Assembly (NCBI GenBank): GCA_030248225.1
Contig: JASANE010028136.1
Coordinates: 1-64,000 of the forward strand
Direction: 5' to 3'
DNA length: 64,000 nucleotides
DNA from: Trileptium ribeirensis
Taxonomy: Eukaryota > Nematoda > Enoplea > Enoplida > Thoracostomopsidae
The position numbers were made by a program, and so were the translations under genes. Every line of letters begins with the position of its first letter. Positions within the stretch are counted from its first letter, which is position 1. Positions 14,687 through 46,050 of this stretch are shown here, one piece after another. The notes below the pieces were generated by a model that saw only the letters and a list, made by a program, of their open reading frames with translations, searched no databases and was not told the DNA's origin.

Positions 14687-17549
14687 CTAAAACATTTTCA
14701 GTACAGTCTCTCTACGAGAAAGCACTTTGTTGTCGTTGCCATATTCTCTTATTTAATCGCGCATTTTAAGGCGATTTTTAGAATTTCAAGACCTATCAAA
14801 CCTACACAGTAAAATTCACGTTAATATATACTTTTTTTCGCATAAATTGTTTTACAGTTTTTTCCGTGTAGTGAATTTGTTTCAATTCTTTTTCAGACAT
14901 GTAAATCATTCAAAACATTTGGAATCTATACCATACATATTAACACTCCTAGGTTTTTTAGGGTTTGCCGGAATCGACGGGGGAGAATGAGGTCACCTCG
15001 GCGGATTATAGGCCCTGGGAGGGAAGTTCTCCAGGCGTGTGCTGAAAAAATTTGGCAAGCCTTGTCGCCTTCCCCTCCCCGAGGACCCATGATGGCCAAG
15101 CTTACCCTCATTTTTGTCTATTCCCTACATTCTCCAATTTCTGGCGAAATTTTCCGCGCACCGGTGAGCCGGGGGTTTGTTGAGGGAGCGGGGGTTTTTC
15201 GACTACTCAGAGAGTAGCCCGCCTGAAGCTCTGCTTCCTTATGCATGATCTACATCCTTCTAATAACTACACTTGCGTTTTCTAGTTGTTCACTGTGAAA
15301 AGTAACAGTCAATAAGTATAGGTCGCCATAGCGGTCACAGTCGTACTATAGGTAATCATTGCAAAGTGTATTTATTATAAATACAAAAAGCACATAGTTT
15401 CCAAATGTTCACTTTCTTTTTTCAAACTAAACCATTTATCGTCAGTCACAGGAATCACAGTCATCCCATAGGAATGAGTGGAGGTGTATTATTAATACAA
15501 AACGTACACAGTTCTCTAACGTTCACTTCAAATTTTCAAAGTATTAACAACAAAATTATGCATTTAAATAACCAAAACTTGAAAATCACTACAATATAAA
15601 GCTTTAAAATTTTGCTAAAAATATAACATTTAGAAAATTTCGAGGGTTTTCTTTCAAAATACACAAAATTTCAAAACCCAATTGAGCAGGTTCAATCGCT
15701 TTTACAACAATACAGCATAGTTACCGTTGGGTTTAGCCTAGGAAATACCAAACATTAATTCTGCTAAAGTAGTCATGACCCATCTAGTTTCTGAACTCAT
15801 AGATGAAAATATCCAAATACAGTTCAAAGGGGTAGGTAAGGGTAACCGTCACCTAGGAAGCATTCGTGTATCGAGCCAGATACTACTCTGACCAAGACGA
15901 ACCATAAAACGAGCTAAATTAGAAATCAATAGGTATTAAAGTTTTGTGCTAAAGATAGATTATCCCGTTGCTAGGTTACCGCGCTAAACCAGAGTTTTGT
16001 TACAGCAATATTATGGCTCAGGACCAGATGGGCGCATATATATGTAATTTTTACCATTGATTGCAGTTAACCATCGACACATATTTCTAGACGCATTGCT
16101 CTGTAAGTGTTCCTTTCGAAGAGCTGGGATAAAACAAAGCCACTGTTAAGCCAAAATTACGTTGAATTTTGTTGTTTCCACCTATAACATGGTAGCCGCT
16201 AAGATGATGTTATAAAAACTTTCACTGTAAGGGAGGATTATGTTCGTGCAACTGCAGGTCTCACATCTATCCGATAACTCCTTTAGCCACTGAATAAGAG
16301 AGCAAAAACTTTTGATTTTATGTCAAAATCCCGTAGGTATTGCTATTACTAAGTTTGAGGATGACAGGCGGTGTTTGGTTTAAATTTTGACATTGAGTGT
16401 ACTTATAAGCTACATATTATACTGTCGATATTTTGTACCCACGTTCAAACTACGGCGTACATTGTTAAAATCAATACGGTCGACCAAAATTTATGTGTTT
16501 TTTGTGAAATATATGGTTTTGGAATTGTTAGTTCTATTGAAGGTCATGTTTTTACCATGTATATGTCGATTTTTGATAACCAGATAGTGCTGCTTTCATT
16601 GGAATATTTCTGTATAGCTATGAGGGGTGTATATATTCTCAGGTCAGAACGTCCAATTGTTACTGTTATCGTTGTGTAATTTTACAAAGAATAATCCGAT
16701 TTGCTTAAAGTTCAGCTGTGAATAATTGATATCAATTCAGTTTATTTAAGTATCGGTTTCGTTGAATCTAAATATTAGTCATGGTTTGGTCTGGCTAGCA
16801 AATAATTAAAAGCATTGGCGACAAACCTAACGATCCTAGCGCAGAATCTAGTTAATACAATAAAGCGAGGTGCGATTGAGAAAACTGTTTTGCATTAACC
16901 ATAATACTATCAATTAAAACGTTTGCAGATGACACATAATAGACAGCAGGGTTTCATTTGGGGACATGAGATATTTAGTGACACAATAATGACGCTACCA
17001 AATATTACAATTTAGATGACCTTTACTTCTTCACTTTAGAAATGAAGATTAGCCATCTTTGAGCTTGAAGTATCCGAAGCTTGGCAAAAAAGTTAAACAT
17101 AGCCACCCACGTTTAAGCTATGTATAACAGCGCGTGTGTCATATGACATCCTACGAAATTACGTTAGTCAAAATTCAGTATTTTGCTCGGTTAACCCTAT
17201 CGTGCATAAACTGACACATTTGTCACAACGCACATTGCGAAGCGATTTGGGAACTGAATTTGCGGTGCGGCATGGTGCGCTTGCGAGCGTCCGCATGGGA
17301 TCGAGCAACAGCACCTCAATAGCGTAATAGCTAATGTACTGGGCTTGGAGCCATTTGTTTCATATTCAAGCAGTCACTGCTACAAAAACTGTCCTAGAAT
17401 GTGCAAAATACACATTATAGCTTAAGAAGGAGAGAGTTAGATCCAATCCAGTATTCCACTCGACTAAATATAGCACTTTACTGCTGCTATCAATTATATT
17501 TTAAGGATACCTAGTGTAACATCTAGTATGGTCTTGTCCAATTCCGTAC
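14687..17549. other. SLC36 intron
   Basis: Intron, mostly AT-rich. Positions 14940-15235 form a GC-rich patch (GGGGGAGAATGAGG, CCCCTCCCCGAGG, GGGGGTTTTTCG) unlike its surroundings and open in several frames, which suggests an inserted repeat of unknown family. The 102-codon plus-strand frame at 16371-16679 shows no domain. Confidence 0.45.
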
Positions 17550-17773
17550 CAAATTTATCGCTTCAAATGCGAACATAACAATTCCAAAAAACAGCGGTAG
17601 TGTTGAAATTGTCTTTGACCCGTCGCGTGTCGAGATTGGCTTTAGGTCGGTAAAAAGGCATTGAAATATAATTACGAAGCCAGCGAGGAACAAAAAATTC
17701 GACAGCAACGATAGTGGTGCAATATATTTGAGCTCTCGAACCATAACAATTGCAAGCACTGGGATTAAGAATG
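17550..17773 (-). CDS. SLC36A: SLC36-family amino-acid transporter, internal exon
   Basis: Exon with a TTTTAG acceptor (17774-17779) and a TTTG|GTACGG donor. The translation reads FLIPVLAIVMVRELKYIAPLS, a long hydrophobic helix, then TLPLFFGIVMFAFEAINL. This matches the SLC36 order of a helix ending in R.LK..aplS followed by PLFFGt.iFafEgi and then LPLEN. Ending in phase 0 at the donor, it joins directly to exon 14505-14686. The three exons together give a continuous core transporter segment. Confidence 0.92.
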
Positions 17774-17965
17774 CTAAAATGTTTTTAGAAAAAAATTTGA
17801 GGTGAATATCCGAAGGTAGAATTAATAATCAGATCGTGTTTTACTGAAGAAAGCATCTACCAGGATATACATACAAAGTGACCAATCGATCAGCAATTTG
17901 ATCTTTTGTAATCATGTGTAATAGTAGAAACGTAGTAAATCTTGTGTTTCATTGGCAGTACTCAC

Positions 17966-28278: not shown

Positions 28279-28284
28279 TTTATT
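28279..28284 (-). terminator. Poly(A) signal at the end of the leftward gene array
   Basis: AATAAA on the minus strand, overlapping the TAA stop codon of the CARD-like gene (reading GAATAAAG). It probably ends the leftward transcripts. Confidence 0.5.
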
Positions 28285-28882
28285 CAAAGTAATCCCAAAT
28301 CTGACCACACAAATCCACAGTTGAATAATCACACTGACTGTTTCTAACAAAATAGTTGATTGGCACGTCTCGACGATGTCCACACTTTTTACATACATGA
28401 ATCAAAAATTCTCTATTCTTTTCACGTTTGTGTAGATAATGTCGACTTCCCGGTCCGCAAATGTCTTCGGCCTGTTGTTCGAGCTCCAATTCATGCTGCC
28501 AAAACTTGAGCTGCCCGTTGAACAAATAATTTTGAATAAAGTCCATCTTTGTAAGAACTTCTTTCGGTGTGTATTCCAAACCGGCTGCACGGGCCTCATC
28601 GCGGAATACTGAATACAGCGTTAGTTGACCTGTAGTATAAAGAGCATCGATAAATTCTAAGAACACAAGGAGGGGTTGTGTTTTAAGCCAATCGTAGAAC
28701 CGCTGCTGAATGTCGCCATTTGCTGGGTGGCATATCTTTTCACGCGTCTGGAGAGACATATATCGGTATAGACATTGCGTCACCGGAACAACACTAAGCT
28801 GGTGATGGTGAATAAGATTATCAATTATATTATTAGCCACAAGTATAGATCTGAAATACGTAAACTGCTTTATGGCAAACAA
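28280..28882 (-). CDS. Possible CARD-like / zinc-ribbon accessory protein
   Basis: An intact 200-aa frame, the last of the leftward array. Residues ~8-100 are predicted helical. The spacing resembles a death-fold CARD: a first helix around NNIIDNLIHH, then QLSVVPVTQCL, then a TREK..., helix around IQQRFYDWL, then PLLVFLEFIDAL followed by TTGQ. CARDs have the same TxxEK / LLdxL / FxxFxxAL pattern. The C-terminal 45 residues hold CKKCG and two more cysteines (QCDYS, DLCG), a possible zinc ribbon. If the CARD reading is right, the protein could touch host apoptosis or innate signalling, but this is inferred from pattern only. Alternatively it is an unrelated helical protein. The stop lies inside the poly(A) signal. 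Confidence 0.5.
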   Translation of the reverse strand: MFAIKQFTYFRSILVANNIIDNLIHHHQLSVVPVTQCLYRYMSLQTREKICHPANGDIQQRFYDWLKTQPLLVFLEFIDALYTTGQLTLYSVFRDEARAAGLEYTPKEVLTKMDFIQNYLFNGQLKFWQHELELEQQAEDICGPGSRHYLHKREKNREFLIHVCKKCGHRRDVPINYFVRNSQCDYSTVDLCGQIWDYFE

Positions 28883-28996
28883 GTACGTAAACTATCAACT
28901 TCGCTCACACTTGAGCCAGGAATTTTTTTTTGGTTTTTTAATATATTTGGCTTTTTACTTTTATAGAAATTAACTTATTACCAATTAGCACGGTGA

Positions 28997-29529
28997 TTAG
29001 GCCCTCAATGCTTCGCGAACCTTCACAAGTATCTGTCCCAGCACATTAGTTCCTGGAAATGGTTCGGTTTCATAGTGCGGGTCGTTCATTTCCCATGCGG
29101 ATCCCACATAACCATCATGCTGGGTGGAAATGACTAATGTTTTGTCGCCTGTTGCTAGAAGTTGGGCCTTTGAACATGGGTTACCGCTAAACTTTGCCAT
29201 AACAGCATCGTGCATCACGTCGTATTGACATCGAACCATTTAGCCTGATCGTATCCGTCAACGGTTTGACCCAACTGATAAGCCTTTGATGGGGACCAAC
29301 ATTGGAGTGTACGGTAATAGGTTTTAGTGTCATTGAAGAAATATGCTTTGCGTGCTTGGTAGTACTGTTAAACACTATGGTACGGAATGCCACTCACGAC
29401 GAACTTGGCCACATAAAAATTAGAGAATGGCGACCATCCTGTTGAAAACAAATATAATTCCGCTCCGTCGGGACTGTTGACAACCCGGTAGCTAGTATTC
29501 CCATTTGAGCTTTTTGGGTTTGCTGCCAT
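28997..29529 (-). pseudogene. NADAR-domain protein (broken)
   Basis: A NADAR (YbiA-like) domain of about 177 codons from the ATG at 29529. NADAR proteins act on ADP-ribose-type adducts; family members are N-glycosidases or ADP-ribosyl-guanine hydrolases. Seen motifs are WSPFSNFY near the N-terminus, IPYHSV, then after a TAA stop QYYQARKA, and at the C-terminus MAKFSGNP, LLATGD and GTNVLGQILVKVREAL, all in family order. The TAA at 29368-29370 sits exactly where the family has the invariant Glu of SVE.YYQA. A second lesion, a frameshift, lies at about 29225-29235. The start overlaps the end of the upstream gene in another frame. NADAR is not a usual Polinton gene to my knowledge. Confidence 0.82.
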
Positions 29530-29887
29530 CCCGTAAGCTTCTTCCAATTGCACTTGTGGGAACGCCTGCCTTTTTAATGATAGCTGCAAACCGTGACGCG
29601 TCGGCTGGTCGGTTAACTTTGAGTATCGGGGAAGTTATGAAATACCGCACCAAATCGATAAAATGCGAACCGATATGACCGTCGGGGTATATGACACGTT
29701 CCTGGTTGTCGACTTGAATTTGATCCTCTAGATAACGAGCAAGGATTTTCGCCTTGTTCCGTAACCTTGGTGCAAGAACGTCCACAATAGTTTGTAACGC
29801 AGTTTGCGATGGTGTGTTAATAACTTCAACGGGTCGCGGGGTTACCTGAGGTGGTTGCTGGTGGTTAGCCTTAAGTTTTTGAAACAA
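29492..29887 (-). CDS. Small conserved protein with DGxxGSHxxDLVxxF motif
   Basis: 131 aa. A Pro/Gln-rich start (residues 6-22) is followed by a compact domain: TALQTIVDVL, a KAKIL.RYLED helix, then YPDGHIGSHFIDLVRYF and a C-terminal part with FAAIIKKAGVP. From memory, short ORFs of mobile elements in marine animals share the pattern KAK.ll..l, G...GS.i.DL. and a final nmP/vP..l; I know no function for it. A structural or DNA-associated role is only a guess from its place beside the capsid and ATPase genes. The frame appears complete and its end overlaps the NADAR start by ~38 nt. Confidence 0.6.
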   Translation of the reverse strand: MFQKLKANHQQPPQVTPRPVEVINTPSQTALQTIVDVLAPRLRNKAKILARYLEDQIQVDNQERVIYPDGHIGSHFIDLVRYFITSPILKVNRPADASRFAAIIKKAGVPTSAIGRSLRDGSKPKKLKWEY

Positions 29888-29923: not shown

Positions 29924-30256
29924 TCACTCATAATTAATTAAATTTTGTAATCTCATTTTTACCACGTTTGAAAGTTTAGGGATAAGAGTAGCTCCCACCC
30001 TTTTTAATATTAATTTCTTCCGAGCTATTGAATTTCGTCTAGATGCCAATGCTGCTACCTTACGGCTTTCTTTCTTGAGCCATAATTTCTGTTCGTTGTT
30101 TAATTTCACATTACCGTTTTCAATGTTCCTACAAATTTCTGATATTGCCCGAACGAGAGACATACTTGGTTTAGAAAGTATAAGCCTAACATATTGAGTG
30201 GGAGCTGTCTGGAGGAACCGAAGAGTGTCTATGTTTTCTTTCACGTCAGCGCTCAT
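29924..30256 (-). CDS. Small conserved Polinton/adintovirus protein (helical, basic)
   Basis: 110 aa, starting at the base where the ATPase frame stops. The pattern LR.L..A...QY.RLIL followed by ISEICRNIENGNVKL, a Lys/Arg-rich helix (KLWLKKESRKVAALASRR) and an amphipathic end is one I associate with small proteins seen repeatedly in Polinton-type elements, where the centre reads EI..N.l.GN(V/I).L. The role is not established. The basic middle and hydrophobic tail could suit a minor virion protein such as an adenovirus pVI counterpart, but that is speculation. Confidence 0.6.
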   Translation of the reverse strand: MSADVKENIDTLRFLQTAPTQYVRLILSKPSMSLVRAISEICRNIENGNVKLNNEQKLWLKKESRKVAALASRRNSIARKKLILKRVGATLIPKLSNVVKMRLQNLINYE

Positions 30257-30906
30257 TATATATAAACGTATGACTGCTCGTAGGGCAAAAGTCCTTCTGA
30301 TAAGATAAATTCTGATGGGATATTAGGTTTAAGATTGACAAATAGGTAACCATACTGCTTTTTTAATGATTTTCTATATGCACCACCAAGATAGTTCTTC
30401 TTCCCGGGAAACATACGTATCCCGAGTGCTGCTATCATTGCATGGTCACCCCTATTTTCAAACAAAAAGTAATAATCCGTATTGCGTCTTATGCAAGGTC
30501 CTACCTTGGGACAAAAATATAAATTTTGTAAAATAAAAATAACGGAAACTAATCTATGTCTGAGTTTAGTGAATAGTGTGATTAAGCGCTTGTCTCCTAC
30601 TAACTTATCCATGAAATCGTCTAATATAACAAGTGTATGGACTGGGGTTTCTGTTTCTTCGAGCAAAAAATCTGGAAAGTGTGGAAGCAACCGGACTTTC
30701 GGATTCCCAATTTCTAGCAATTGTGATTCTGGCATGTTATAATAATAAAAAATTCTATCAAAAGATAGAACATGAAGAGTTTGACAATGTTTTAGAATTT
30801 CACGAACAAAATACGATTTACCTGTCTGTGTGGACCCCGAAACTATTGCATTATACGGCTGCTCGAGTAAAATAGGAGTATCACTGTTCCCAACTGAATT
30901 CTCCAT
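30256..30906 (-). CDS. FtsK/HerA-type genome-packaging ATPase
   Basis: An intact 216-aa ATPase, the motor that pumps DNA into the capsid in Polintons, adintoviruses and related PRD1/adenovirus-lineage viruses. The Walker A motif GSTQTGKS is at residues 24-31, the Walker B LVILDDFMD at 92-100, and a conserved Gln in FILQN near 127 matches the sensor position of the A32/HerA group. Length is at the short end of the family. The ATG at 30906 lies inside the 3' end of the capsid gene (26-nt overlap in another frame), a compact viral arrangement. No lesion is seen. Confidence 0.93.
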   Translation of the reverse strand: MENSVGNSDTPILLEQPYNAIVSGSTQTGKSYFVREILKHCQTLHVLSFDRIFYYYNMPESQLLEIGNPKVRLLPHFPDFLLEETETPVHTLVILDDFMDKLVGDKRLITLFTKLRHRLVSVIFILQNLYFCPKVGPCIRRNTDYYFLFENRGDHAMIAALGIRMFPGKKNYLGGAYRKSLKKQYGYLFVNLKPNIPSEFILSEGLLPYEQSYVYI

Positions 30907-32211
30907 TTTGTTTTATAGTCAACACGCTATCGAGTTCTGACATAGCTAATAGCATTATAGGTTCTGTTAATGGTTTACTATAGGTGAGTTCTATGTCAAC
31001 GTTACCATGCTGCGGGGTTGATTGGTAACCACAGCTGGTGGACCCATCTCTCGTAAGTGTTATGGGTATAAGAAAATAACCTGCTGCGTAGCCAAAAGCG
31101 TCAAACCCTGGATCTAAGTTTGCGAAATCCGTTCCCCTAAAGAAATTTAGATAAGACCTGTAAATGTCACCGAATCTCTAGAAAGTTAGTGGAACACTTG
31201 TGGGAAATGACTTTTTATTGACAAAAACTTGTAAACTTTGTAAGCCGAAATCTTCAAAGTTATATGGATTCTTATCAATCTGTCCGTTATAAGCTGATGC
31301 CCTAACCTGAAAATAATTTTCCGGGGAACTTTGCCATTGCAAATATATGACCATGAAACATTCATATCTCCCACACCTAGTGATTTTGTGGTAATATTAT
31401 GCCTCACAACTGGATATTTATACCCTGAAGATGATAATATCCGCTCATGTTTACCTAAACTGGCCGGAGCAAGAGTAACATACGGAGTGTAAAGTTTTGC
31501 TGCCTTTGTCTTAATGTTGTAAGATTTATTAGGTTTTCCAATTATACAAAAAGAGGGTTTAGTTCTATGAAATATGGGGCTCATTGGTACATTTCCCGGT
31601 AGGAATCGGCCCGTATTAAGAAAATCTGTGAATACTCGACCACAAATTTCACCTTTATTTGTTTCGAGGTTTGTTGATCTCTGAGCTAGTGCATCCGGCT
31701 CACTTTCGAAACCATATGGTTGCTCTGCCTTATATATTGCCGTTTGCAGAAGGTTTTTGCGGACCTGAGCGGGGAAATAAAGATGAAACATGGCATACAT
31801 TATATATTGGTAATTTGACTGTTCGAAGGAAACAGTTTTACCTGCAATTTTTAGTTCAACTCTATCAAACATAGAGTATAGAAATAAATTAGCTGGACCG
31901 TCTACATCTGTTTCCAACTGCCTCTTTGGTTTTTTCGTAGTTGGAGGCTTAGAAGGGGGTGTGGTAGTTTTAGGTTGTGTAATTTTCTTGGTTATTTCTA
32001 CTAGTAAATATAACATTACAGAATCATCATCGATATAGTCCGATGTCCCTCCGAACCTGAACTCAAGTGGAGTTAAATAGTCATCTGATGGTAAACCTGT
32101 GAAACATGCGCTCTCAACAACTTGTGTACTTTCAATTTCATCCTGAATTGGGGGAAGAGAATTTAAGTCCAATCCGGAAACACTACATTTGGGTTTTGCG
32201 GAAAAGGCCAT
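30881..32211 (-). pseudogene. Major capsid protein, double jelly-roll (broken)
   Basis: The Polinton/adintovirus hexon-like capsid gene. The N-terminal 300 codons are open from the ATG at 32211. Family features are the stretch FLYSMFDRVELKIAGK (first jelly roll), YIMYAMFHLYF, GRVFTDFLNTGRFLPGNVPM and KYPVVRHNI, then NGKVPRKI. After a frameshift near 31310 the continuation lies in another frame, with an in-frame TAG at 31178-31180, and then runs to a TGA at 30881-30883 through the conserved end containing GNVDIELTYSKPL and LLAMSELDS. An unusual Thr/Pro/Lys-rich insert (residues ~78-95) separates the first strands. It lies 2 nt after the core peptide and overlaps the ATPase start. Two lesions make it a pseudogene. 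Confidence 0.9.
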
Positions 32212-32213
32212 AT

Positions 32214-32369
32214 TTAGTATAGGCGTTTTCTTTGCTTTCGACGTTTACGTGTACTGCGTTTGCGTTTCTTTGTTCTCTTTTTAATAGTTTTACGCCTCGC
32301 CTTACTTATTTTAAGAGGGACGGAACGTTTAGCACTGCCTACCAATAGACGTACTAGTGCTGGATCCAT
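32214..32369 (-). CDS. Basic core peptide, adenovirus pX/mu-like
   Basis: A 51-aa frame (ATG 32369 to TAA 32214) between the small 108-aa gene and the capsid gene. About half the residues are Lys or Arg, packed in the second half (RRKTIKKRTKKRKRSTRKRR). Adintoviruses carry such a small peptide resembling adenovirus core protein X/mu, which condenses DNA in the virion. The position immediately before the hexon-like gene, with only 2 nt between them, agrees with this role. The sequence is too simple for homology, so the call rests on composition, size and context. Confidence 0.7.
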   Translation of the reverse strand: MDPALVRLLVGSAKRSVPLKISKARRKTIKKRTKKRKRSTRKRRKQRKRLY

Positions 32370-32462
32370 TGCGGTAAACTAATGATTACTTGGAATTCCA
32401 ATTTGCTTTGAAAATTTGTTTCGAGATTAAACTAGTTAGGATAATTATATTTAATTGGCTTT

Positions 32463-32789
32463 TTAATAATTTTGTATGTGCAAAAGAGTCTGAACCTTTT
32501 TCTGAGACGTAAAGGGTAATCCCAAATCTATTATTATGCTGTCCAAGTAAGACACACGGATGCGGTGATATACCGGAATAGTAGTATTTTTGGCGTTGAC
32601 GTAAAGGATGCGACAATGCTCGTCGTTATGAACGGAGGGTTCTATTATATCTGTTTGCAAAGGGGTGACCTCTGGTGGGAGCGTACACTGAACAACAGCT
32701 ACTCTGGCACGGGAAGTGTCTATAGGTTGAGAACAATGAGCCGAAACGTAGGGCGATCCCGGAGTAACTTGGTCAATTACCACATACAT
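32463..32789 (-). CDS. Small protein, possibly minor capsid remnant
   Basis: 108 aa, starting inside the 3' end of the TBP-like gene (17-nt overlap). It is beta-rich in appearance (YVVIDQVTPGSPYVSAHCS, RARVAVVQCTLPPEV, HCRILYVNA). The element should have a penton-type single jelly-roll protein, and this is the only unassigned structural-looking frame near the capsid gene, but it is less than half the usual penton length and lacks a clear match. It may be truncated: a separate frame covers 32386-32616 without any recognisable continuation. Treat it as unassigned. Confidence 0.4.
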   Translation of the reverse strand: MYVVIDQVTPGSPYVSAHCSQPIDTSRARVAVVQCTLPPEVTPLQTDIIEPSVHNDEHCRILYVNAKNTTIPVYHRIRVSYLDSIIIDLGLPFTSQKKVQTLLHIQNY

Positions 32790-33303
32790 AGTTGGCTAGT
32801 ATATCGGCCACTTTGTTAACAAATGGTTCAATGTGCTTGGTCTTTTTAATACCTGTTAGAATAAGTTTGCCTGTGTGGTGAATTAGCACCGTTCGACCTT
32901 CAAGTTTTAACAATAGCGGTGGCATATGCTCATGAGGATCGAAACTTGCCAAGTAATTTGAACTCTGTAAATATGCACATAATTTATGAAGATTGAACTT
33001 TTGTTTCATGTCGAGCGACAGTACATAATTTTTGACTGAAAACTTGAAGTAGCCTTGACCTATCGCATGCGAAACTTGTTCTACGATAGACCTTGCCTCT
33101 ATAGGATTTCTTAGGCCAACGATAGTAAATTTTCCAGAAGCAAACAGCAAGCAGCAACCTCTAGGCTCGGGGTGCCATACTAGTCCACTGGATTTGTTAG
33201 AATCATACTGAGTGGGTGGATAGAGTTTGGGACCCAGTGAGCATAGATCTATAGGATTATCGAAGAAGCCACAAATTGTAGTGTTAACAACCGACCACTC
33301 CAT
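32773..33303 (-). CDS. TATA-binding-protein (TBP) homologue
   Basis: An intact 176-aa frame the size of the TBP core, with its two-fold repeat visible. Repeat 1 has the start VNTTICGFFDNPIDL, then CCLLFASGKFTIVGLRN (residues 50-66). Repeat 2 has YVLSLDMKQKFNLHKL, FDPHEHMPPLLLKL (121-134) and VLIHHTGKLILTGIKK (139-154), followed by a C-terminal helix. These are the TBP hallmarks: (I/L)F.SGK...TGa in each repeat and Y.PE.FPgL in repeat 2. TBP recognises TATA boxes and nucleates transcription initiation. In repeat 2 the DNA-kinking Phe of the LiF.SGK strand is His, so binding may differ. It is encoded without introns between integrase and capsid genes, so it belongs to the element. No lesion is seen. 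Confidence 0.85.
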   Translation of the reverse strand: MEWSVVNTTICGFFDNPIDLCSLGPKLYPPTQYDSNKSSGLVWHPEPRGCCLLFASGKFTIVGLRNPIEARSIVEQVSHAIGQGYFKFSVKNYVLSLDMKQKFNLHKLCAYLQSSNYLASFDPHEHMPPLLLKLEGRTVLIHHTGKLILTGIKKTKHIEPFVNKVADILANYVCGN

Positions 33304-33339: not shown

Positions 33340-33873
33340 TCACAACCTTTTTATATCCTTTTCGGTTACCCAAGATGCCTGCTCGAAGGGATACCCCTTC
33401 CATCTAACAAAATATTCTGTGCCCCCACGTTTAGTTTTCCGCCTCTTTAGAATTGTTTCAATTTCATATATTTCGTCTTTTCGCGTTACCTTTCGCATTT
33501 CTTGTTCATAAAAAAAACCAAGAATAGGTTCTGCAGTGACAGTTTTAATACGGTATGTTGGTGGCATGCTAGGGATCCTATGGTCAATAAAGCACTCTTC
33601 CTCGGTCCAGTTAGGATAAAAAGATTTTGGGAAAGGGGATTTACGCTTCAGTAATTTTATTCTGTCACCAACTTCAAATTTATACTTCCTCGGCAGCTTG
33701 GTAAATACTTTGGGCTACAACTTGCGCCTAACAACATGTTTATTTTCGCGCGTAACGTGAACTGGTCGAAATCCAGTGGTTCTAACTTTGCGCATGTTAA
33801 TGGACTCAACGATGTCGCTTAAGGCATCAATGTATCGCCATGTGTATTGGTGACGTAGGTATATGTATATATA
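33340..33873 (-). pseudogene. Integrase C-terminal part with chromodomain
   Basis: The 3' half of the Polinton integrase, cut off from the catalytic half by a hAT insertion at 33883. Reading from 33860: a helix typical of the integrase C-terminal end of the core (YTWRYIDALSDIVESIN), a TAG at 33715-33717 in frame, an SH3-like segment with KFEVGDRIKLLKR, then a chromodomain (YEIETILKRRK, YFVRWKGYPFEQASWV). Chromodomains in integrases direct insertion to particular chromatin marks. The aromatic cage-type residues Y, W and W/Y are present. The TBP-like gene begins 36 nt after the stop. Confidence 0.9.
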
Positions 33874-33882
33874 TATATATGT

Positions 33883-35060
33883 CAGGGAATAACCGGAACC
33901 AAAATTTACCGGAACTGGAACCAGCAACCGGAACCGTCCATTTAAACCGGATCCGGAACCTGGTCTTCGAAATTTATATATAGTAAAACAGATGATGGAA
34001 GAAATGAAGGTATAGTGGATTTAAAATGCATTAAAGCTTTTACATTAAACTCAATGTTTTGCGATGGTATTAGTGCCTTTCTGAAACTTTAAAGAGACTG
34101 AGGAAGCTAATAATGTTTATTTATCGATCAAATATGTGGACTTTTGGACACCCAGAGCAAAAATACCTTCCACTATACACCATTGCATATACTGCGTCAA
34201 ATCGAATATGCTTACAAAGCTTGGAGCGTAGAATACACACTTTCGCGCTGTCTGCAGTCGCCTCCCTTTACTTCACATACGTTTGTTGCATGTTCATCTG
34301 TAGGAAACTTAAAATTATTGGTTTATATTATATGATTTTAAGAGAAAATAATAGATAGAAGGTAATTTTCTGATCAGTGGTCAGGGACACTGTTTAGACT
34401 AGTGCCCGTAAGTTTTGGACAAACAGTGCCTGTAAGTTAGATGATAATGATAACTTTCTAATCAGAATGCTATAAATGAGACACACTGTGATGCTGCTCG
34501 CACAGTTTCAATAAATACAGTTCTTTGCCAAGAAAGCAGTTTCTAGCTGCGTTGCAGATAACGTTCGTTTACTTCAATTTAGACTGATTTACTAAGTTTA
34601 CAAGCGCACTGGCGGGTGCCTGACGCAATTTATGTTAGCCAAGCATACCCTAAGTACTTATGTGTAAGCCATACTCTGTTACCGAGTTGGACCGGTTTAA
34701 TTCAAATGTATCCCACAAACTTCTGAATGTGTAAAATAGCTGCTACAAGCATCGACCTGGCTTTGATTTAACAAACTCCTGCATGTTATTATGAAAAATT
34801 CCTGCTCAAATTGTGTGCCCTACTTACATTTTACACGGCAAATTGGTTAGTTAATCTTTTCTTTTGCTTGGTTGTATTGGAGCTTGATCATTGTATAATA
34901 TATATTACATATGTTTGGATTACAGGATAAAGCAAAAACGTGGAAAATTTCAAACAAAATTTTTAAACCGGAATTCCGGTTCCGATATGGTTTTTGCCCT
35001 TTGCCGGAACCACAACCGGAACACGATTTTCGCCGGAACCAGAATTCCGGTTACTCCCTG
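33883..35060. mobile_element. Non-autonomous hAT element inserted in the integrase gene
   Basis: 1178 bp between inverted ends CAGGGAATAACCGGAACC and, read inward from the right, CAGGGAGTAACCGGAATTC. CAGGG ends fit the hAT superfamily. Flanks are ATATATGT on the left and GTATATGT on the right, a 7/8 match consistent with an 8-bp target duplication altered by the TA microsatellite beside it. Sub-terminal arrays of GGTTCCGG-type motifs occur at both ends. No transposase is encoded; short frames inside show no domain. A second, inverted copy lies at 54932-56085. Confidence 0.88.
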
Positions 35061-35094: not shown

Positions 35095-35628
35095 TTACGC
35101 TCGGCAAACACAGTTTTTTGAGTCATCGTTCATGGTGTAAAGAAGTTTTATCCCCCGTTCTTTGAAAACATCTGTAAAAGCCTTGCTATAATGCTCCTTA
35201 GCTCTGTCTACTATAAAGTTTCTCGGCTTTTCCGGTAATAAGGAATTCAATACTGTAGTTAGTGCTAATGTTAGCGCTTGTCCCGTTTTTGTCTTAAGAG
35301 GAATACCCCACCAGTACTTGGAAAAACAATTTATAATTACAAAAATATATCTATACCCATCATTGTACTTAGCCAAAGCCTGCATATCCGCAAGATCCGA
35401 TTGAAAAATATCATATAAATCTGAGACCATGTACCGAACACGCTTGAAGTTATGTTTAGGTCTTTTACGAACGAGTGTGTAGGGTGTTTGGCCTGATAAA
35501 AATTGTTTAATTTGAGACAATGTAACCTCCAACCCCTCTTTTTTAGCCGCCTTATAGAGGCTATATGCTGAGCCTAGCCCCAATGGATTAGTTGTGTCGT
35601 AGTATATACGGTGAAGTTTAGAATCCAT
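35095..35628 (-). pseudogene. Integrase catalytic half (RVE family, truncated)
   Basis: N-terminal 177 codons of a Polinton integrase, which inserts the element into the genome. Residues ~5-50 are the family's leader (IYYDTTNPLGLGSAYSLYKA, FLSGQTPYTL). The RNase-H-like core follows, with the first catalytic Asp in QSDLADMQAL and the second in FIVDRAKEHY. The frame ends at a TAA just after NDDSKNC, before the point where the family carries its third acidic residue (Glu of the KA..vER motif). The catalytic triad is therefore incomplete, and 27 bp later the hAT element begins. The starting ATG is preceded closely by the end of the membrane-protein gene. Confidence 0.93.
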
Positions 35629-35671: not shown

Positions 35672-36025
35672 TCAAAGATTATAAGGCTCTAAAACTTCAA
35701 ATTTATCTAAGGTTAGAGCTTTCCCCTGCATAGTGGTAATTGTGTGCTGTTTAAAATTGGAAGGACCACTACAAGTCTTAACTTTGAATTCGCTCAACTG
35801 GTTGGGAGTAATAGCATACTCTTCTTTGTTTTTGGTAATGTATATCTCACGAGAACATAAAGTGATCATGGTCTGCGGGCTGAAGTAGTAAACCTTGCAA
35901 TACTCCAATTCCTGCTGTGGTACCTCGTCCGAAAGACCCAAATGAATGAATACTACGACATTATAGATGGATAAAAGCAAAGAAACAAATATGACAATTG
36001 CTGCGACTATTTTATCTCGCTCCAT
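35672..36025 (-). CDS. Small membrane protein of the Polinton
   Basis: 117 aa, intact. One clear transmembrane segment at residues ~7-31 (IVAAIVIFVSLLLSIYNVVVFIH) after a short charged start (MERDK), then a soluble ~85-residue domain with three cysteines (EYC, TLCSRE, TCSG). The topology suggests a signal-anchor protein with the C-terminal domain outside or in the ER lumen. No homologue is recognised. Many Polintons and adintoviruses have a small single-span protein near the integrase, so a virion-membrane or entry-related part is conceivable but unproven. Confidence 0.6.
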   Translation of the reverse strand: MERDKIVAAIVIFVSLLLSIYNVVVFIHLGLSDEVPQQELEYCKVYYFSPQTMITLCSREIYITKNKEEYAITPNQLSEFKVKTCSGPSNFKQHTITTMQGKALTLDKFEVLEPYNL

Positions 36026-36106: not shown

Positions 36107-36663
36107 CTAATAATTATCGCATTTACAAAGTAGGTCAATATCATATTCAAAATTTAGATCATTAGGCTTTAGGAGCATCAATTCTGTCATGGCTTCAGTC
36201 AAATAGCTCATGTTGGTTTTACTCTGTTTCAATTCGTGTATCTTCTTTACGATCATACCGTAGTGTTCTTTAGTAGCCACAATTGATAGAGAGTTTTCGA
36301 AAAACATTGCCCGGAACATTTGGTCTTCTAAATTGTCAGCAACCGGCTTGGGTGTTGATGTTGGAAGACGTCGTAGTAGTAATTAGTGATAATCTGAAGC
36401 GTCGTGTTCCGGCCTGAGTATGAGAGTGCCAGATCATCAACCGATTGGTCTAAATATATATCGGCGTGGAAATCGAACACGTAGAGGCCACCGTGTTCCC
36501 ATGGCTCGTCTTCGACTGATTTATTTTCTTGACATCCTGAGCAGTTGTTCTTGACCAATTCCATAATTTTGTTGCAAATGTTGTTGAGGTCTTGGCGGCT
36601 GATTTGGCGCGTCATGGCTGATGAAATGTCTATGTGGATTCCTGGGGAACGGGGTGTGATCAA
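36107..36663 (-). pseudogene. Small CxxC Polinton protein, frameshifted
   Basis: Two frames that read as one gene. 36328-36663 gives a helical start (SRQDLNNICNKIMELVK) and NCSGCQEN, then an acidic middle (FDFHADIYLDQSVDDLALSY). Near 36350 the frame is lost, and 36107-36345 continues as DNLEDQMFRAMFFENSL, a Lys-rich helix and an end LLCKCDNY. From memory, short Polinton proteins often carry C.GCQ followed by a helical domain; no function is known to me. The likely start is the ATG of MTRQ at about 36615. One indel at 36340-36355 separates the halves. Confidence 0.5.
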
Positions 36664-36814: not shown

Positions 36815-37188
36815 GTAATAATTTTATGACTAGAAGACACATAAGCTATTCTCAAAGTTGACGACAATTCATTAGTATCTCGGACGCGGCCAATAAACCT
36901 GGGGAATTCCTTTGTGACAGCAAATTTATCATTGGATTGTTTCTCCTTGGTATCGTAGTAAAAGTAAGTGTCATAAATGTACTCCTTGAGTTGTTCTTTT
37001 GTAATAATGAAATAGGATTTGCATCCATCAGGGTCAAAATGACCATTGGGAAGCGTCGACGTCCATTGGCTCTTCTCAGAACATTTCTCGGATGGTGCCG
37101 ATGTTGCAGATGCAATGGTGTGGTGTGTATTTGAGGAATTTGTTGTTGAAAAGCGACAATTTCTGGAAGAGGTTTTGCCAGCGGTCAT
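36799..37188 (-). CDS. Hypothetical Polinton ORF overlapping the exonuclease end
   Basis: 129 codons. The first ~38 overlap the exonuclease C-terminus in another frame and are Ser/Thr-rich, so the true start may be internal. The rest has a coherent composition (SYFIITKEQLKEYIYDTYFY, KFAVTKEFPRFIGRVRD). No family is recognised. It could also be the original C-terminal extension of the exonuclease joined by a frameshift at about 37100. Confidence 0.4.
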   Translation of the reverse strand: MTAGKTSSRNCRFSTTNSSNTHHTIASATSAPSEKCSEKSQWTSTLPNGHFDPDGCKSYFIITKEQLKEYIYDTYFYYDTKEKQSNDKFAVTKEFPRFIGRVRDTNELSSTLRIAYVSSSHKIITCYPI

Positions 37189-37819
37189 TATCGAATGTTA
37201 TTGTTATAATTTTTAGTTCTTTTGTACGTGGAGCGTATATTACAAAGTCTGTTAAGTGTAATCCTGTGATAGCTAATTGCCCTAAAACTTGAAAATAATA
37301 CTTGTGATTAGCTTTTAAAGTAAATGCCCCAGTATCTTTATTTATAGCACAATAGAACTGAGACTTCCTACTTTTACCTATTTCCATAATTGTCCTGGCA
37401 TTGTCTGCTGTATCGTAAAGGCACTTAATCTCCAATATCCTAGGTTCTGGGAATGTATGGGATGTAACAATATCGTCGGGAGTAGTACCTAGATAGGGCG
37501 CTGAAACTGGGATGCACAAACCTGAAGCATGAACGGTGACATGAACTCCATGATCTTTGTAGTACCGGATGTAAGCTTGCCTTGCATTTTCTTCGTCCGT
37601 TATACCAAGCAATCATGCTGTGGGAATAGGGCGATTAATGGCTCGAGGTGCTCTGATGTCATACAACAGCTTTTGAAGTACATGATCACTACTAGCACTA
37701 TGTAGCCTACAAAAATAGGAGGACGTTATTCGCACTTTACGTTCATCCCACCATGTGGAGCATTCGCCCTGGGGAATTGTGGAGTAAAATATGGACTTGT
37801 AGATACGGCCGTCCATCAA
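37076..37819 (-). pseudogene. YqaJ/lambda-type exonuclease with one internal stop
   Basis: First gene of the leftward array. The family (PD-(D/E)XK alkaline exonucleases, with viral recombinases) digests DNA ends for recombination and repair. Motifs are STWWDERKVRITSS near the N-terminus, ITDEENARQAY, PYLGTTPDDIV with the catalytic Asp, ILEIKCLYD with the Glu and Lys of E.K, and YYFQVLGQLAITGL, the conserved substrate-channel helix. All are in the usual order. A single in-frame TGA at 37613-37615 splits the N-terminal 68 codons from the catalytic part; the frame is otherwise continuous. The start is ATG at 37819 or the next codon, downstream of a minus-strand TATA box. Some Polintons carry this gene. 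Confidence 0.9.
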
Positions 37820-38013: not shown

Positions 38014-38205
38014 AATTAATCATTTTTGACAGGCGGCAAGATCAAAGAGCGGCGTCATTTCGGTACCAGGCACTGATGACTCGTCACTTTAGAATGTTGC
38101 AGAAGCTTGGACAATTAATCATTTTTAAGAGGCGGCAAGATCAAGGAGTGATGTCATTTGGTAAAAGGCTCGGATGACTCATCATTTTGGAATGCGACGC
38201 AAGTT
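38014..38205. repeat. Two 99-bp direct repeats in the divergent promoter
   Basis: Copies start with AATTAATCATTTTT at 38014 and 38113 and share GGCGGCAAGATCAA, GTCATTT and GATGACTC blocks. A partial third copy of the end (CGACGCCACTTGTTTA) lies just before, at 37994-38009, resembling GCGACGCAAGTTGTTTA after the second copy. The TGACTC core resembles an AP-1-type site. Probable reiterated regulatory units. Confidence 0.7.
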
Positions 38206-38275: not shown

Positions 38276-38319
38276 CGGCGGTGTTATTAAAAGGGATCAT
38301 TTTCTTTGTTTTTCACCAG

Positions 38320-41300
38320 ATGATGGAATGCAACGAGTGTGACAAAAGTTTTACGCAAAAGAAGAACTTGGTACGACATAAGAAGTCGACGCACGAAGGA
38401 GAGAAAAACAAGTGTTCGGTGTGTGGTAGGTCCTTCTCACGCAAAGACGCCGCCGATCTACACTTGCGGAATAGTCACAACGAGTCAACCGAATCAGCGT
38501 CCCGAAAGAGAGCAACGTCATCGACGGAGGATCTACCGGCGCCAAAATGTCCGCGAGTTAACCTCAAACAACCTAAGTTGCGGCCACATGTACTGCCAAA
38601 TGAAGACCCTTTGGGATACAAAGGCAACGACGAACACCTACGTCACAATTGGCATCAAATCCGCACCCATTATCACCGAGGTCGCCCGGTTCAAGACAAG
38701 TACAATTTCCGCTTCGAAACGGCATCGGAGGAAGAAATAAAGAACTATATAAAAGCGGTCTACAAAATTCAGCGGTACAAAGCGAAGCGGAATATTTCGT
38801 TCGGATTCGTTTTGCGAAACATCGTAACACAGGAGGAGTCGTACTTTTACAGCAGCAATAACACCCGGTTCTTTAAGATACCTATATTGATCGCCGGTCG
38901 GAGTGACTTTAACGGTTTCATTGAACGATTAGATGGTCAGGATATTCTCGAATGGGCTCGACAACAGCGACCGAATACAAAGTTCATTGAGGATCGACTT
39001 ACCAACGTAACGGTTGTGGTAAACAAGTTGATGTCGCATGCGCTAATAGGTCGCCCAGTTTATCTACCACCGTGAATTAAAGGTAACAAAAGTGTAATAG
39101 CATTGGACAAAAATCGTCATGGAGTTCCATACGACGACAGTCCGTGCTTTTTTTCGGTGTTTAGCGCTACACCGCGGTTTCCAAATGAATCGTGCCGCTG
39201 AATTTGAAGAGTACGTTAAAGAACAATGTCAGATATGGTGTCAGTTCCGAAGCCAAGATGTTTTCGAGGGAGTGAGGATCGATGATATGGAGGAACTAGA
39301 ACAATTATTCAAAGTAAATATTGCCATTTACGAATTGAGTGAAAAAGAAAGAATTAGAAACCAATTAGAAGAACTAATGGATCGTGCTGAAGAAATGATG
39401 CCGCAATTTGAGCCAGCTTTATTGGAGATGGTAGATGAGAATGAAAAGCTAATGCCACAGGAAGACGAATATGAAGACAATGAGGATGAAGAAGATCGAT
39501 GTGGTTTGTTTATAGACGACATGGCAGAAGATGAAACAATTGAAGAAGTTGAATCAACGGATATGCCGATTTTAGAAATAGAAGGAAGACATGATGCAGC
39601 TAGCCGTTGCCGCAGATATACCTATTTCGATGCGACAGACTAACGATGACAATCCAGGGGGACCTATAGCAGGGTTGAAACGAAAATCTGAAGGACTGCA
39701 GCATGAGACATTAAACGTTAATTTATACAATGGTCATTTTTCTTTTATAAAAGATTTAGCAAATTTTTCTAAATCATGGAGGTGCGAAAAATGTGATAAG
39801 CTCTGGGCCGACAGTTACAAGTTCGACATACAAATACATGTGATGGTTAAGCCACAGCAGTAATATACAAAGGCGGCGGCTATGGTTTACCTAAAACAAT
39901 TCACGATGAACTGCGAGAAGAGGGTTTTCAAGTAAATAACGAATTCTATCGATACCGAGCAACATACGACTTTGAAGGCCGATTCCAAACGAAATCGAAC
40001 AGTGAAGATGAAGAAAGAAAACTAATATACACCAAGGTTTTAATACCGGCTAGTGTTTCGGTTGCAAGCAATGTTCCGGGCTTCGAAGAACCGAAATGTT
40101 TTATTGGCGACAGCGATGACATTGTTGCAGAGATGCATGCATATTTGTGTGAAATTAGCGAAGCAGGTTTCCAGCTAATGTACGAAGAATTGGGTGAGAT
40201 ATATGACGAACTAAAACGGAGGCATGACGAAAGCAAAGAGTTCGAAAGAGAATACAGAAGATTGCTACGCCAAAGCAAGCACGGTCAAGACGTACAGGAA
40301 TGCCTTGATGAAGCAAAAGATAAAACCCGAGAAAGCAGAAGATGGAAATATTTGTTCGAACGTTTTGGAAAATGGATGCAGCAACTAATAGTGTTGGGCT
40401 TCAACAGCGCAAAGTTCGACTTTAACCTCATCAAACAACATTATGTGCCTTATCTTATTATGAATGGCGACAAAATCCACAACACGATCAAGAAGAATAA
40501 CGCTTTTATGAGTGTAGCAACGGATAAATTGCTTTTTTAGATATAGCCAACTATCTAAGTCCCGGCACGAGCTACGTGAAGTTCTTGCAAGCGTTCAATG
40601 TGCAGCAAAAGAAAGGGTTTTGGCCATACGAATGGATCGAATCTCTTGAGCAGCTGGATGAAACAGACTTGCCACCCATTAATGCGTTTTACAGCACTCT
40701 AAGGCAGAAAGAAATGAGTAGAGAAGACTACGAAACGCTACGAAATATATGGAAAGAAGAAAAGATGGAAACAATGCGTGATTTATTGATATGGTACAAT
40801 AACTTGGACCTTGTGCCGTTTTTGGACGCGGTACAAAAGATGTATAGCCAATTTGAAGAATGGGGAATTGACATGTTCAAGCAAGCAATAAGTCTTACCG
40901 GCGTAGCTTTGCAGCGCATGATGCAACGGCTTCCCAAAGGAGGTCTCTTCGTATTGTTCAACGATAGGTTTAAAGGTATTCATGACCTCATTAAACAAAA
41001 CATTGTAGGCGGTCCTTCTATAGTTTTCCACCGTTATCACGAAGCTGGAAAGACATTGATAAGGGATATTAAGATAGTGAAGAAAATATTGGGCTATGAC
41101 GCCAATTCACTCTATCTATGGTGTTTGTGCCAGGACATGCTCACTGGCCTATTTGCAGTGTGGCGTCCAGCCGATGGCTACGCTGGAGAAGAAGTACCGT
41201 TTGGATGCGGAATGGATGAAAAGCAATTTTTGCAAACTACAAAAAGAAACTATGACATTAATTTTACTCCGATTCAGGGTTATACGCGTGGAACCACTGA

Positions 41301-42870
41301 ATTAGTGTTTGTAGAATATCAAACAAGGCGGCTTTGTTCAAGGCTTGGGAGAGACGATATAGTTATTCAACATCGTTTCAACGGAGGACAAAAGCGGTTG
41401 TACCGGGGATCTACAATTTATTCAGTGGATGGATACGTAGCTGCCGGAAAGTATAGAAACGAGAGAGCAATTATTATCGAATTTGATGGGTGCTATTGGC
41501 ATGGATGCAGCACGTGTTTTGTCGTGCCTATCGACGAAGATCTCAGACAGAGAGACGAAAGAACACGAGCTAAACACGAATTCCTTAGAAGCCTCGATGC
41601 CGAAATTATAATTGGGAAAGAACGCCAATTCGGGCCAGTGATTGAAAACGAAATTAGACACAATGACAGCTGGAAAGAGTGGATATCTCTACATGCGAAA
41701 ACAGAATTCAAGGACAACGTCAAAATGAGGGGTATCGTAAGTCATATAATGGCAGACAAAGAGTTTGGAGTAGTGGAAGTGGACATTCAGATGCCTTATT
41801 GGAATAAACAATTGTTGGAAAGGTGGGAAGAACTACCGCCAATATTTAAAAACGTGGATATTGCGAAAGAAGACATTGGAGATAATATGAAACAATACGC
41901 CAATGACAATGGTGTGATGTCAACACCGCGGAGAGCACTCATCAGTTCATACCACGGTGAAAATATACTTCTCGCAACACCTCTTCTACGCTTTTATATA
42001 CAAAGGCGCCGAATGAAGGTTACCCGGGTCCAACAATTCATAGAATTCCAACGCGTGGCAGCCTTCGAGCACCTAGGGGTGGAGGTTGCCGATCAAAGAC
42101 GTAAAGCCGATAAGGACCCAAATGAACGAGTGAAGGGTGGCTGATAGGTAACAATTATTATGGTCGACTATTGGATAAAACAAAATTCGATGAGGTGCAT
42201 TTTGCTCCGCAGCACGAGGTACAACGAATGGTCAATGATCCGCGATGTAAAAGGATGGATGAGATAGCGGAAGGGGTATTCGAGGTTCATATGTCTAAAA
42301 AGAAGATAGTTCACGATCTTCCAAACATTATTCCATTCTTTGTATACCAATATGCAAAGTTGCGGATGCTGGAGTTCTATTTATTCCTTTTGGAACGTGT
42401 GGGAAAAGAGAATTTCCAGCTAATACAAATGGATACAGACAGCATGTACTTCGCAGTGCCAAGGGATTCGCTGGAAGCTAGTGTTCCGCCGGAAAAACTC
42501 CAAAAGTTCAATGGGATGAAGTCAAAGTTTATCGCGACAGACGATCACAGCCAGCGTACACCGGGGTTGTTTAAACTCGAATGGAGCGGCGAGGGCATGG
42601 TGGCGTTAAATAGTAAAACTTAATACGGTTGGACTGAAGATGAATCTACCAAAATTTCAACGAAAGGACTATCGAAAACGACAAACTAAAGAAGCATTTT
42701 TTAACGTACTATTTGATAAAACTAAAGAGGGTGGAGTGAACCATGGATTTCGAATTTTAAAAGACTGCGGATTTGTACAGTACAAGCAGTATAAAGACAG
42801 TTTGACGTACTTTTATCCCAAACGTATTGTGTGTGCTGATGGTATTTCTACAAAACCGTTGCATTTGTAA
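38320..42870 (+). pseudogene. Protein-primed DNA polymerase B with N-terminal zinc fingers (broken)
   Basis: Polinton replicative polymerase. The chosen start is the ATG at 38320, because two C2H2 fingers begin directly after it (CNECDKSF...H, CSVCGRSF...H) and the 54 upstream codons look like leader. Next come the N-terminal domain (FGFVLRNI, FIEDRLTNVTVVVNKL), RCLALHRG, an acidic insert (39450-39510), CEKC.K.W, ExoI YDFEG (39965), ExoII GFNSAKFDFNL (40398), ExoIII YNNLDLVPF (40795), motif A GYDANSLY (41093), a segment with EFDGCYWHGC (41480), motif B-type NNYYG (42150), motif C MDTDSMYF (42430) and the end FYPKRIVCADG. Lesions are a TGA at 39073, an indel in T7 near 39150, and frame breaks near 39640, 39860, 40540, 42145 and 42630. 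Motif A ends LY followed by L, not the usual P. Confidence 0.95.
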
Positions 42871-44448: not shown

Positions 44449-46050
44449 CAGCAAAACCTTCGGACATCAATTGCTAAAAGTAAGTGAAAGCTAAACTTGT
44501 ATAAAGTTACAAAAACACTTGCCAGACGGATACAAAGTTAAGTTGGCAATATTTGAAAAAAATATCAGTAATAATTTTTTTCTGCAAAACCTTCGGACAT
44601 CAATTGCTAAAAATAAGTGAAAGCTAAGCTTGTGTAAAGTTGCAAAAACACTTGCAGACGGATACAAAGTTAAGTTGCCAATATTTGAAAAAAATATCAG
44701 TAATAATATTTTTTCTGCAAAACCTTCGGACATCAATTGCTAAAAATAAGTGTATGCTAAACTTGTGTAAAGTTGCAAAAACACTTGCCAGACGGATACA
44801 AAGTTAAGTTGCCAATATTTGAAAAAATATCAGTAATAATATTTTTCTGTAAAAGCTTCGGACATCAATTGCTAAAAATAAGTGTAAGCTAAACTTGTGT
44901 AAAGTTGCAAAACACTTGCCAGACGAATACAAAGTTAAGTTGTCAATATTTGAAAAAATATCAGTAATAATATTTTTTCTGCAAAAGCTTCGCACATCAA
45001 TTGCTAAAACTAAGTGAAACCTAAACTTATGTAAGGTTACAAAAACACTTGCCAGACGGATACAAAGTTATGTTGCTAATATTTAAAAAAATATCAGTAA
45101 TATTTTATCTACAAAAGCGTCGGACATCAATTGCTAAAAATAAGTGAAAGCTAAACTTGTATAAAGTTACAAAAACACTTGCCAGACGGATACAAAGTTA
45201 AGTTGCCAATATTTGAAAAAATATCAGTAAAAATATTTTTTCTGCAAAACCTTCGGTCATCAGTTGCTAAAAATAAGTGAAAGCTAAACTTGTATAAAGT
45301 TACAAAAACACTTCCCAGACGGATACAAAGTTAAGTTGCCAATATTTGAAAAAATATCAGTAAAAATATTTTTTCTGCAAAACCTTCGGTCATCAGTTGC
45401 TAAAAATAAGTGAAAGCTAAACTTGTATAAAGTTACAAAAACACTTGCCAGACGAATACAAAGTTAAGTTGCCAATATTTGAAAAAAATAACAGTAATAA
45501 TATTTTTTTCTGCAAAAGCTTCGGACATCAATTGCTAAAAATAAGTGAAAGCTAAGCTTGTGTAAAGTTGCAAAAACACTTGGAGACGGATACAAAGTTA
45601 AGTTGCCAATATTTGAAAAAATATCAGTAATAATATTTTTTCTGCAAAACCTTCGGACATCAATTGCTCAAAATAAGTGTATGCTAAACTTGTGTAAAGT
45701 TGCAAAAACACTTGCCAGACGGATACAAAGTTAAGTTGCCAATATTTGAAAAATATCAGTAATAATATTTTTTCTGCAAAAGCGTCGCACAGCACTTGCT
45801 AAAAATAAGTGAAACCTAAACTTGTGTAAGGTTACAAAAACACTTGCCAGACGGATACAAAGTTAAGTTGCCAATACTTGAAAAAATATCAGTAAAAATA
45901 TTTTTTCTGCAAAACCTTCGGTCATCAGTTGCTAAAAATAAGTGAAAGCTAAACTTGTATAAAGTTACAATAACACTTGCCAGACGGATAAAAAGTTAAG
46001 TTGGCAATATTTGAAAAAAACTATCAGTAATAATGTGTTTCCGCAAATCT
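44449..46050. repeat. Satellite, about twelve ~132-bp tandem units
   Basis: The unit marker CTTCGG(A/T)CATCA(A/G)TTGCTAAA or a close variant recurs near 44458, 44591, 44723, 44856, 44988, 45118, 45250, 45384, 45517, 45650, 45782 and 45915, a spacing of 130-134 bp. Each unit also carries CAGACGGATACAAAGTTAAG and AATATCAGTAA. Units differ by point changes and 1-3 bp indels, mostly in A or T runs. Before the array, at about 44330-44450, the sequence is related to no unit. Minus-strand frames repeating the same peptide are a by-product of the unit length being near 44 codons. Confidence 0.9.

Follow-up and report, generated by a model that had tools for sequence, protein, structure and literature searches.

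The window, the whole 64,000-nucleotide stretch of DNA analysed here, carries an element that spans about 15 kb and has a divergent layout, with a leftward cluster on the minus strand, including a gene for a TATA-binding protein (TBP), and a PolB gene running rightward on the plus strand from 38320. The following genes and features were recognised:

28280..28882, minus strand: 200-aa ORF, listed start TTG; CARD-like middle recognised by eye, then a CxxC stretch; unmatched in Pfam, NCBIfam and PHROG
28997..29529, minus strand: NADAR-domain gene, broken over two frames or more, ATG at 29529 assigned by hand; PF08719 pieces, E 1.2e-15 and 1.2e-7
29492..29887, minus strand: ORF131, nothing over cut-off; listed start (29887) TTG
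29924..30256, minus strand: ORF110, no matches
30256..30906, minus strand: A32-type packaging ATPase; PF04665, E 6.5e-7, 29.5 bits against a cut-off of 22.8; relative P0019, 69%
30881..31177, minus strand: probable final piece of the capsid-type gene, read in a different frame, assigned by eye; no matches
31186..32211, minus strand: first piece of the capsid-type gene, assigned by eye alone; no Pfam, PHROG, NCBIfam or PDB match
32214..32369, minus strand: gene for a small Lys/Arg-rich (basic) protein, ATG at 32369; no Pfam match
32463..32789, minus strand: ORF108, start inside the TBP gene; no database match
32773..33303, minus strand: TBP gene, 176 aa, intact; PF00352, PDB 1mp9, hhalign 99.4, relative P0001 44%
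33340..33714, minus strand: integrase C-terminal piece with chromodomain; PF00385, E 6.8e-12
33908..35060, unstranded: interspersed repeat interrupting the integrase gene; a further copy (89%) at 54932-56076
35095..35628, minus strand: integrase core piece (rve); PF00665, E 6.1e-9
35672..36025, minus strand: ORF117, nothing over cut-off
37076..37612, minus strand: YqaJ-type nuclease (viral recombinase/exonuclease type); PF09588, E 6.4e-8
38320..42870, plus strand: PolB with N-terminal C2H2 zinc fingers, in several broken frames; PF00096, E 2.5e-10; PF03175, E 2.5e-5

The integrase, A32-type ATPase and PolB genes bear out the Polinton-like character that a first-pass annotation of this DNA had proposed, but the adintovirus affinity put forward with it is not established. 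The capsid-type gene is unmatched, no adenain-type protease rose over the cut-off among the ORFs scanned (a set covering not all small frames, in a decayed element), and terminal inverted repeats of at least 30 bases are absent within 25000-48000, with no convincing pair in the wider flanks, although the ends may be eroded. Searches for tRNA and against Rfam gave no match. The protein-primed PolB model PF03175 reaches 23.8 bits on the broken frames, slightly under its cut-off of 25.8, and the 5' piece of the NADAR gene taken alone has no Pfam match. The NADAR gene also matches a NADAR anti-phage model, far under cut-off. We regard the provirus as decayed because its integrase gene is interrupted by a repeat of about 1.15 kb and the frames of PolB, the capsid-type gene and the NADAR gene are no longer intact. 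The two copies of this repeat (33908-35060 and 54932-56076) are mutually inverted and could help to date the provirus.

Several further features lie in or around the element. The divergent control region that separates the two transcription units contains an 83-base direct repeat with 83% identity (38014-38194), directly before PolB. Immediately right of the element, a 133-base unit is repeated in tandem about 12 times (44451-46034). On the minus strand, two exons matching PF01490 (transmembrane amino-acid transporter) were found at 1589-1900 and 17523-17828, the second slightly under cut-off, which points to an intron-bearing eukaryotic host gene beside the element.

The TBP gene is read from 33303 to 32773 on the minus strand, where the open-reading-frame list gives an intact frame of 176 aa with both TBP repeats; the plus-strand reading of 32773..33303 contains many stops. 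Such a frame had been described in the first-pass annotation together with the motifs SGKFTIVG, TGKLILTG and FDPHEHMP, and both descriptions hold. All three motifs are found in the translated protein, and PF00352 matches it in two stretches with E 2.4e-20 and 72.6 bits, against a cut-off of 22.9, so that the lack of a TBP match, named there as a ground for rejection, does not apply. The best PDB match is 1mp9, an archaeal TBP (E 6.1e-11), and hhalign aligns the protein with a four-TBP profile over 160 columns at a probability of 99.4. Ten TBP models of NCBIfam match as well, all far under cut-off (the best at 61.8 against 181). Judged by these matches, a chance resemblance to TBP is excluded.

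The gene is also tightly set among its neighbours. The end of the integrase frame and the start of TBP are 36 nt apart, and at its other end TBP overlaps ORF108 by 17 nt, which agrees with the overlap already remarked on. Its earlier placement between integrase and capsid genes is right for the integrase, whose chromodomain piece adjoins it, but the capsid-type gene (a label given by eye) lies two small ORFs further. Taken together, the Pfam, PDB and hhalign matches, the tight packing with integrase, A32 ATPase, PolB and YqaJ genes, and the existence of the relative P0001 support the view that TBP is the element's own gene, probably a resident gene of a Polinton-like virus that is now a decayed provirus. 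The intact frame in itself does not speak for selection, as luck may spare a gene of 0.5 kb from breaks.

P0001 is a metagenomic protein and the sole strong match to the window TBP in a set of 5.8 billion proteins (44% identity over 99%, E 1.8e-36). It derives from a contig of 3962 bases and scores 78.2 bits against PF00352. Common to both proteins are a MEWxVVNTT start, an HHTGKLI strand and the Met and His replacements described below. A two-sequence profile made from them found 17 more TBPs at 24-30% identity, one of them named (Promethearchaeota). In a tree of 20 rows the window TBP and P0001 form a clade (100/100) whose stem measures 2.75 changes per column; the wider placement is not resolved. 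Identity to the cellular TBPs compared, among which the host's own TBP was not included, is 22-27% (22% for yeast), and yeast and Sulfolobus TBPs are 46% identical. This distance, and the presence of the same peculiarities in P0001, make a recent retrocopy of the host gene very unlikely, including the near-identical copy considered in the first-pass annotation.

Seven scans of viral contigs, using the window TBP, P0001, their alignment, the capsid-type piece, the ATPase alignment, P0019 and a strand motif, returned no relative, and none was found in the genome contigs scanned. A scan of the viral contigs with cellular TBPs gave 11 TBP contigs, and the phage records yielded one weak TBP match, in a haloarchaeal virus. 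Conservation of TBP as a Polinton gene would rest on one relative, P0001, known from the protein alone, together with the ATPase relative P0019 (69% identity), which is on a separate short contig.

In the MAFFT alignment the minor-groove Asn is kept in both repeats, N7 and N92 aligning with yeast core N9 and N99, and it is also kept in P0001. The four positions of the intercalating Phe read S38, F54, M127 and H142 in the window TBP and F, F, M and H in P0001; both repeat-2 losses (Met and His) are thus common to the two proteins, and the repeat-1 Ser is private to the window. The His for Phe in repeat 2, on which the first-pass annotation had commented, is correct in this alignment and is joined by two further changes, M127 in repeat 2 and S38 in repeat 1. 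Both repeat-2 Phe are kept in all 10 readable viral-contig TBPs (of 11 found; 8 once two near-identical pairs are merged) and in 8/8 other TBPs of the alignment. The segment ahead of repeat 2 has one residue extra and reads DP-H/C-E/D-H-M against EP-E-L-F. The Phe replacements weaken the case for canonical TATA binding, not that for TBP descent. One viral-contig TBP (L010, match 10001-10528) lacks both repeat-1 Phe and keeps repeat 2, a mirror image of the window TBP.

A recurrent box, (T)ATTAAAAAG, was first noticed when the 120 nt upstream of every gene start were listed. Five of its six exact copies read TATTAAAAAG. This shared promoter-like box is new and goes beyond the first-pass annotation. 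The sites are distributed as follows, together with the canonical-type box found before TBP:

28934..28959, minus strand: two one-mismatch variant boxes, upstream of the left-end 200-aa ORF
29570..29578, minus strand: ATTAAAAAG box, upstream of the NADAR gene
30000..30008, minus strand: ATTAAAAAG box, upstream of ORF131
30359..30367, minus strand: ATTAAAAAA variant box, upstream of ORF110
32277..32285, minus strand: ATTAAAAAG box, upstream of the capsid-type gene
32459..32467, minus strand: ATTAAAAAG box, upstream of the basic-protein gene, distance 98 nt
32842..32850, minus strand: ATTAAAAAG box, upstream of ORF108, within the 3' end of the TBP gene
33347..33355, minus strand: TATAAAAAG, canonical-type TATA box, 52 nt upstream of the TBP start codon
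36060..36068, minus strand: ATTAAAAAG box, upstream of ORF117
38286..38294, plus strand: ATTAAAAGG variant box (TATTAAAAGG from 38285), 35 nt upstream of the PolB zinc-finger ATG at 38320; single

Counts were made over the 8071 bases of the leftward genes, with the inserted repeat left out. Exact ATTAAAAAG occurs six times on the gene strand of this cluster and 0 times on the element's other strand; outside the cluster and element, the same strand of the window has none and the plus strand two. It is the most extreme of all 9-mers in the cluster (6 against 0.19 expected, p 5.4e-8), and an equally extreme 9-mer arose in 0/300 order-2 simulations, with 0/300 likewise for 10-mers. At the level of 8-mers the motif is not significant (111/300 simulations). 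A 9-mer more extreme than the box does occur in two of the six segments of 8 kb taken from outside the element. Both of these 9-mers sit in tandem arrays (44451-46034 and 56018-56077), whereas the boxes are spread over 6.5 kb.

Position relative to gene starts provides additional evidence. If a single mismatch is tolerated, the gene strand has 10 sites outside the inserted repeat and the other strand has 1. Nine of the ten lie 43-121 nt upstream of a gene start, two of them sharing one ORF, a count in which the NADAR and basic-protein starts were fixed after the motif was known and the starts at 29887 and 28882 are TTG in a decayed element; the exception, at 31219, is far from every start. When the 12 mechanical ORF starts alone are used, 7/10 sites fall in the zone 40-125 nt upstream, which makes up 11.7% of positions (p 2.7e-5), and ATTAAAAAG ties for the best zone p among 1346 9-mers. 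Six of these 12 starts have a box in the zone, and as many starts were served in 8/8055 circular shifts. The mechanical starts without a box there are those of the ATPase, TBP, INT and YqaJ genes and of the frames at 36663 and 37188. The related TATTAAAA occurs seven times on the gene strand of the cluster, against 1.1 expected from the flanks, and 0 times on the other strand; five of the seven are in the start zone, and one (33550) lies 247 nt upstream of TBP. TATA(A/T)A is not enriched in the cluster (14 against 21.7 expected from the flanks). Codon use contributes somewhat to the box count, since four exact boxes lie inside coding frames and three of these read Ile-Lys-Lys.

In cellular TBP the half formed by repeat 2 touches the 5' half of the box. 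It is the 5' half that separates TATTAAAAAG from TATAAAAG, and repeat 2, which sits on that half, is the most changed part of the protein; on these grounds we pair the TBP with the box. This match, and the precedent of the herpesvirus TBP mimic, lead us to favour, with a confidence slightly better than even, the explanation that the protein is a dedicated viral TBP by which host RNA polymerase II is steered to promoters of a dedicated TATT type. The suggestion in the first-pass annotation that the polymerase might be directed to the element's own promoters thereby gains circumstantial support from the shared (T)ATTAAAAAG box; we infer that the window TBP recognises this box, but host TBP may also read it.

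The mechanism that we envisage can be outlined as follows. The viral TBP would bind the TATTAAAAAG-type box and, once bound, would assemble TFIIB and the RNA polymerase II of the host at viral promoters; the polymerase is assumed to be that of the host because none of the ORFs scanned was recognised as an RNA polymerase gene. Host TBP could first switch on the TBP gene through its TATAAAAAG box, after which the viral TBP would turn on the genes that carry the box, the capsid-type gene and PolB among them. Such an arrangement would parallel, in a small virus, the late system of herpesviruses. More tentatively, and with somewhat less than even confidence, we put forward that small Polinton-like viruses, probably infecting animals, form a lineage in which a TBP remodelled in repeat 2 evolved along with promoters rewritten from TATA to TATTAAAAAG, the TBP gene alone keeping a canonical TATA. 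Host TBP might start the programme and viral TBP complete it, as a two-component switch independent of the herpesvirus late system.

Whether the box is a promoter element at all deserves consideration, as it could be a poly(A) signal or a by-product of Lys-rich coding. ATTAAA is a known variant of the poly(A) hexamer and is found 12 times on the gene strand against 2 on the other, one box shares bases with the end of ORF108, and the Ile-Lys-Lys reading of three of the four exact in-frame boxes would suit a coding origin. Nevertheless, 5/9 start-linked sites lie inside the upstream frame, at 71-86 nt ahead of its stop in four cases and at 111 nt in the fifth, where polyadenylation would cut the message short; AATAAA is spread evenly between the strands (8 against 9), and the coding strand on the PolB side has no such site except the one before the ATG. 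Core promoter elements are favoured by the strand bias, by the placement ahead of gene starts and by the several sites that fall within the gene before, and we consider the poly(A) or coding explanation improbable. Still less credible, to the point of being nearly discounted, is that the TBP frame was inserted by chance or from the host and does nothing for the element. A single copy is known, which would suit such an origin, but the frame overlaps the next gene and is not close to the cellular TBPs compared, and P0001, with the same peculiarities, largely refutes it.

Two other scenarios accept the TBP and the boxes but assign the reading of the boxes to host TBP. The protein might act as a decoy that engages TFIIA, TFIIB or TAFs but does not bind DNA properly, and so dampens host transcription. 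With three of the four intercalating Phe gone, DNA bending could be abolished, and the acidic stirrup residues before repeat 2 (DPHE in the window TBP, DPCD in P0001) fall near what we take to be the TFIIB-contacting Glu positions. Against this, both minor-groove Asn are kept in the window TBP and in P0001, the recurrent non-TATA box is left unexplained, and a compact virus gains little by damping the polymerase on which it depends; we give the decoy a small chance. Alternatively, the gene might have been captured from a host TBP or TLF/TRF2 and serve a general role unrelated to the boxes, which host TBP would read as weak TATA. TLF is a metazoan TBP relative without the intercalating Phe (no TLF sequence being among those compared here), and canonical TBP tolerates some TATTAA sites. 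The 22-27% identity to the cellular TBPs compared and the long stem speak against such a capture, as does the recurrence of the box while TATA is not enriched, so that its chance appears small. A dedicated viral TBP reading its own TATT boxes is the explanation that we favour.

Should this be true, a provirus of about 15 kb with both a TBP and a matching box would indicate that even small eukaryotic dsDNA viruses can own parts of the machinery of Pol II initiation. It would add another instance, next to the late system of herpesviruses, in which a viral TBP goes with TATT boxes, and would offer a compact natural test of the correspondence between the halves of TBP and those of the TATA box that they read. 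Gene control in a Polinton-like element becomes directly testable.

In its overall composition the element resembles Polintons, Mavericks, adintoviruses and 'meldviruses', with which it has in common the rve integrase with chromodomain, the A32-type ATPase, the zinc-finger PolB and the divergent layout. It differs from them in its TBP, NADAR and YqaJ genes, in its unmatched capsid-type gene and in that no terminal repeats or protease were recognised. A search of the Polinton, adintovirus and Maverick literature in combination with TATA or TBP, covering titles and abstract starts with few subscription journals and no supplementary tables, gave no Polinton TBP. TATA and TBP are absent from the main text of PMC11071308, PMC11071296, PMC10120064 and PMC12721341, and in part of the text of PMC10675990 and of PMC12220804 there is no Polinton TBP.

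TBPs of archaea and haloarchaeal viruses provide another comparison, given that the best PDB match, the named protein match (Promethearchaeota) and the match in the phage records are all on the archaeal side. The further protein matches are 24-30% identical to the window TBP, and the NCBIfam subfamily scores are far below the cut-offs. For large dsDNA viruses, TBPs are reported in three families known earlier and in four added ones (PMC11410667). Asfarvirus B263R is reported to keep three intercalating Phe (PMC5825884), nimavirus wsv303 is listed as a TBP (PMC10871703), and algal elements that putatively derive from mirusviruses are mentioned as containing TBPs (PMC10675990). These proteins (asfarvirus, nimavirus and mirusvirus) are likewise virus-encoded and have the same two-repeat TBP architecture. 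The viruses in question are large, whereas the element here is about 15 kb, and repeat 2 here is without both Phe, a distinction drawn from their descriptions.

The closest functional parallel may be the late complex of beta- and gammaherpesviruses. In KSHV, the vPIC boxes of late genes follow TATTWAARV, for example TATTAAAAG before ORF4, and the TBP mimic is ORF24 (PMC6541308). There too a viral TBP-like protein goes with TATTWAA boxes, and TATTAAAAAG fits TATTWAARV (PMC6541308). The herpesvirus late system is a six-protein complex, whereas here the TBP is recognisable by sequence and no counterparts of the partners were recognised. The likeness between the two systems would be convergent.
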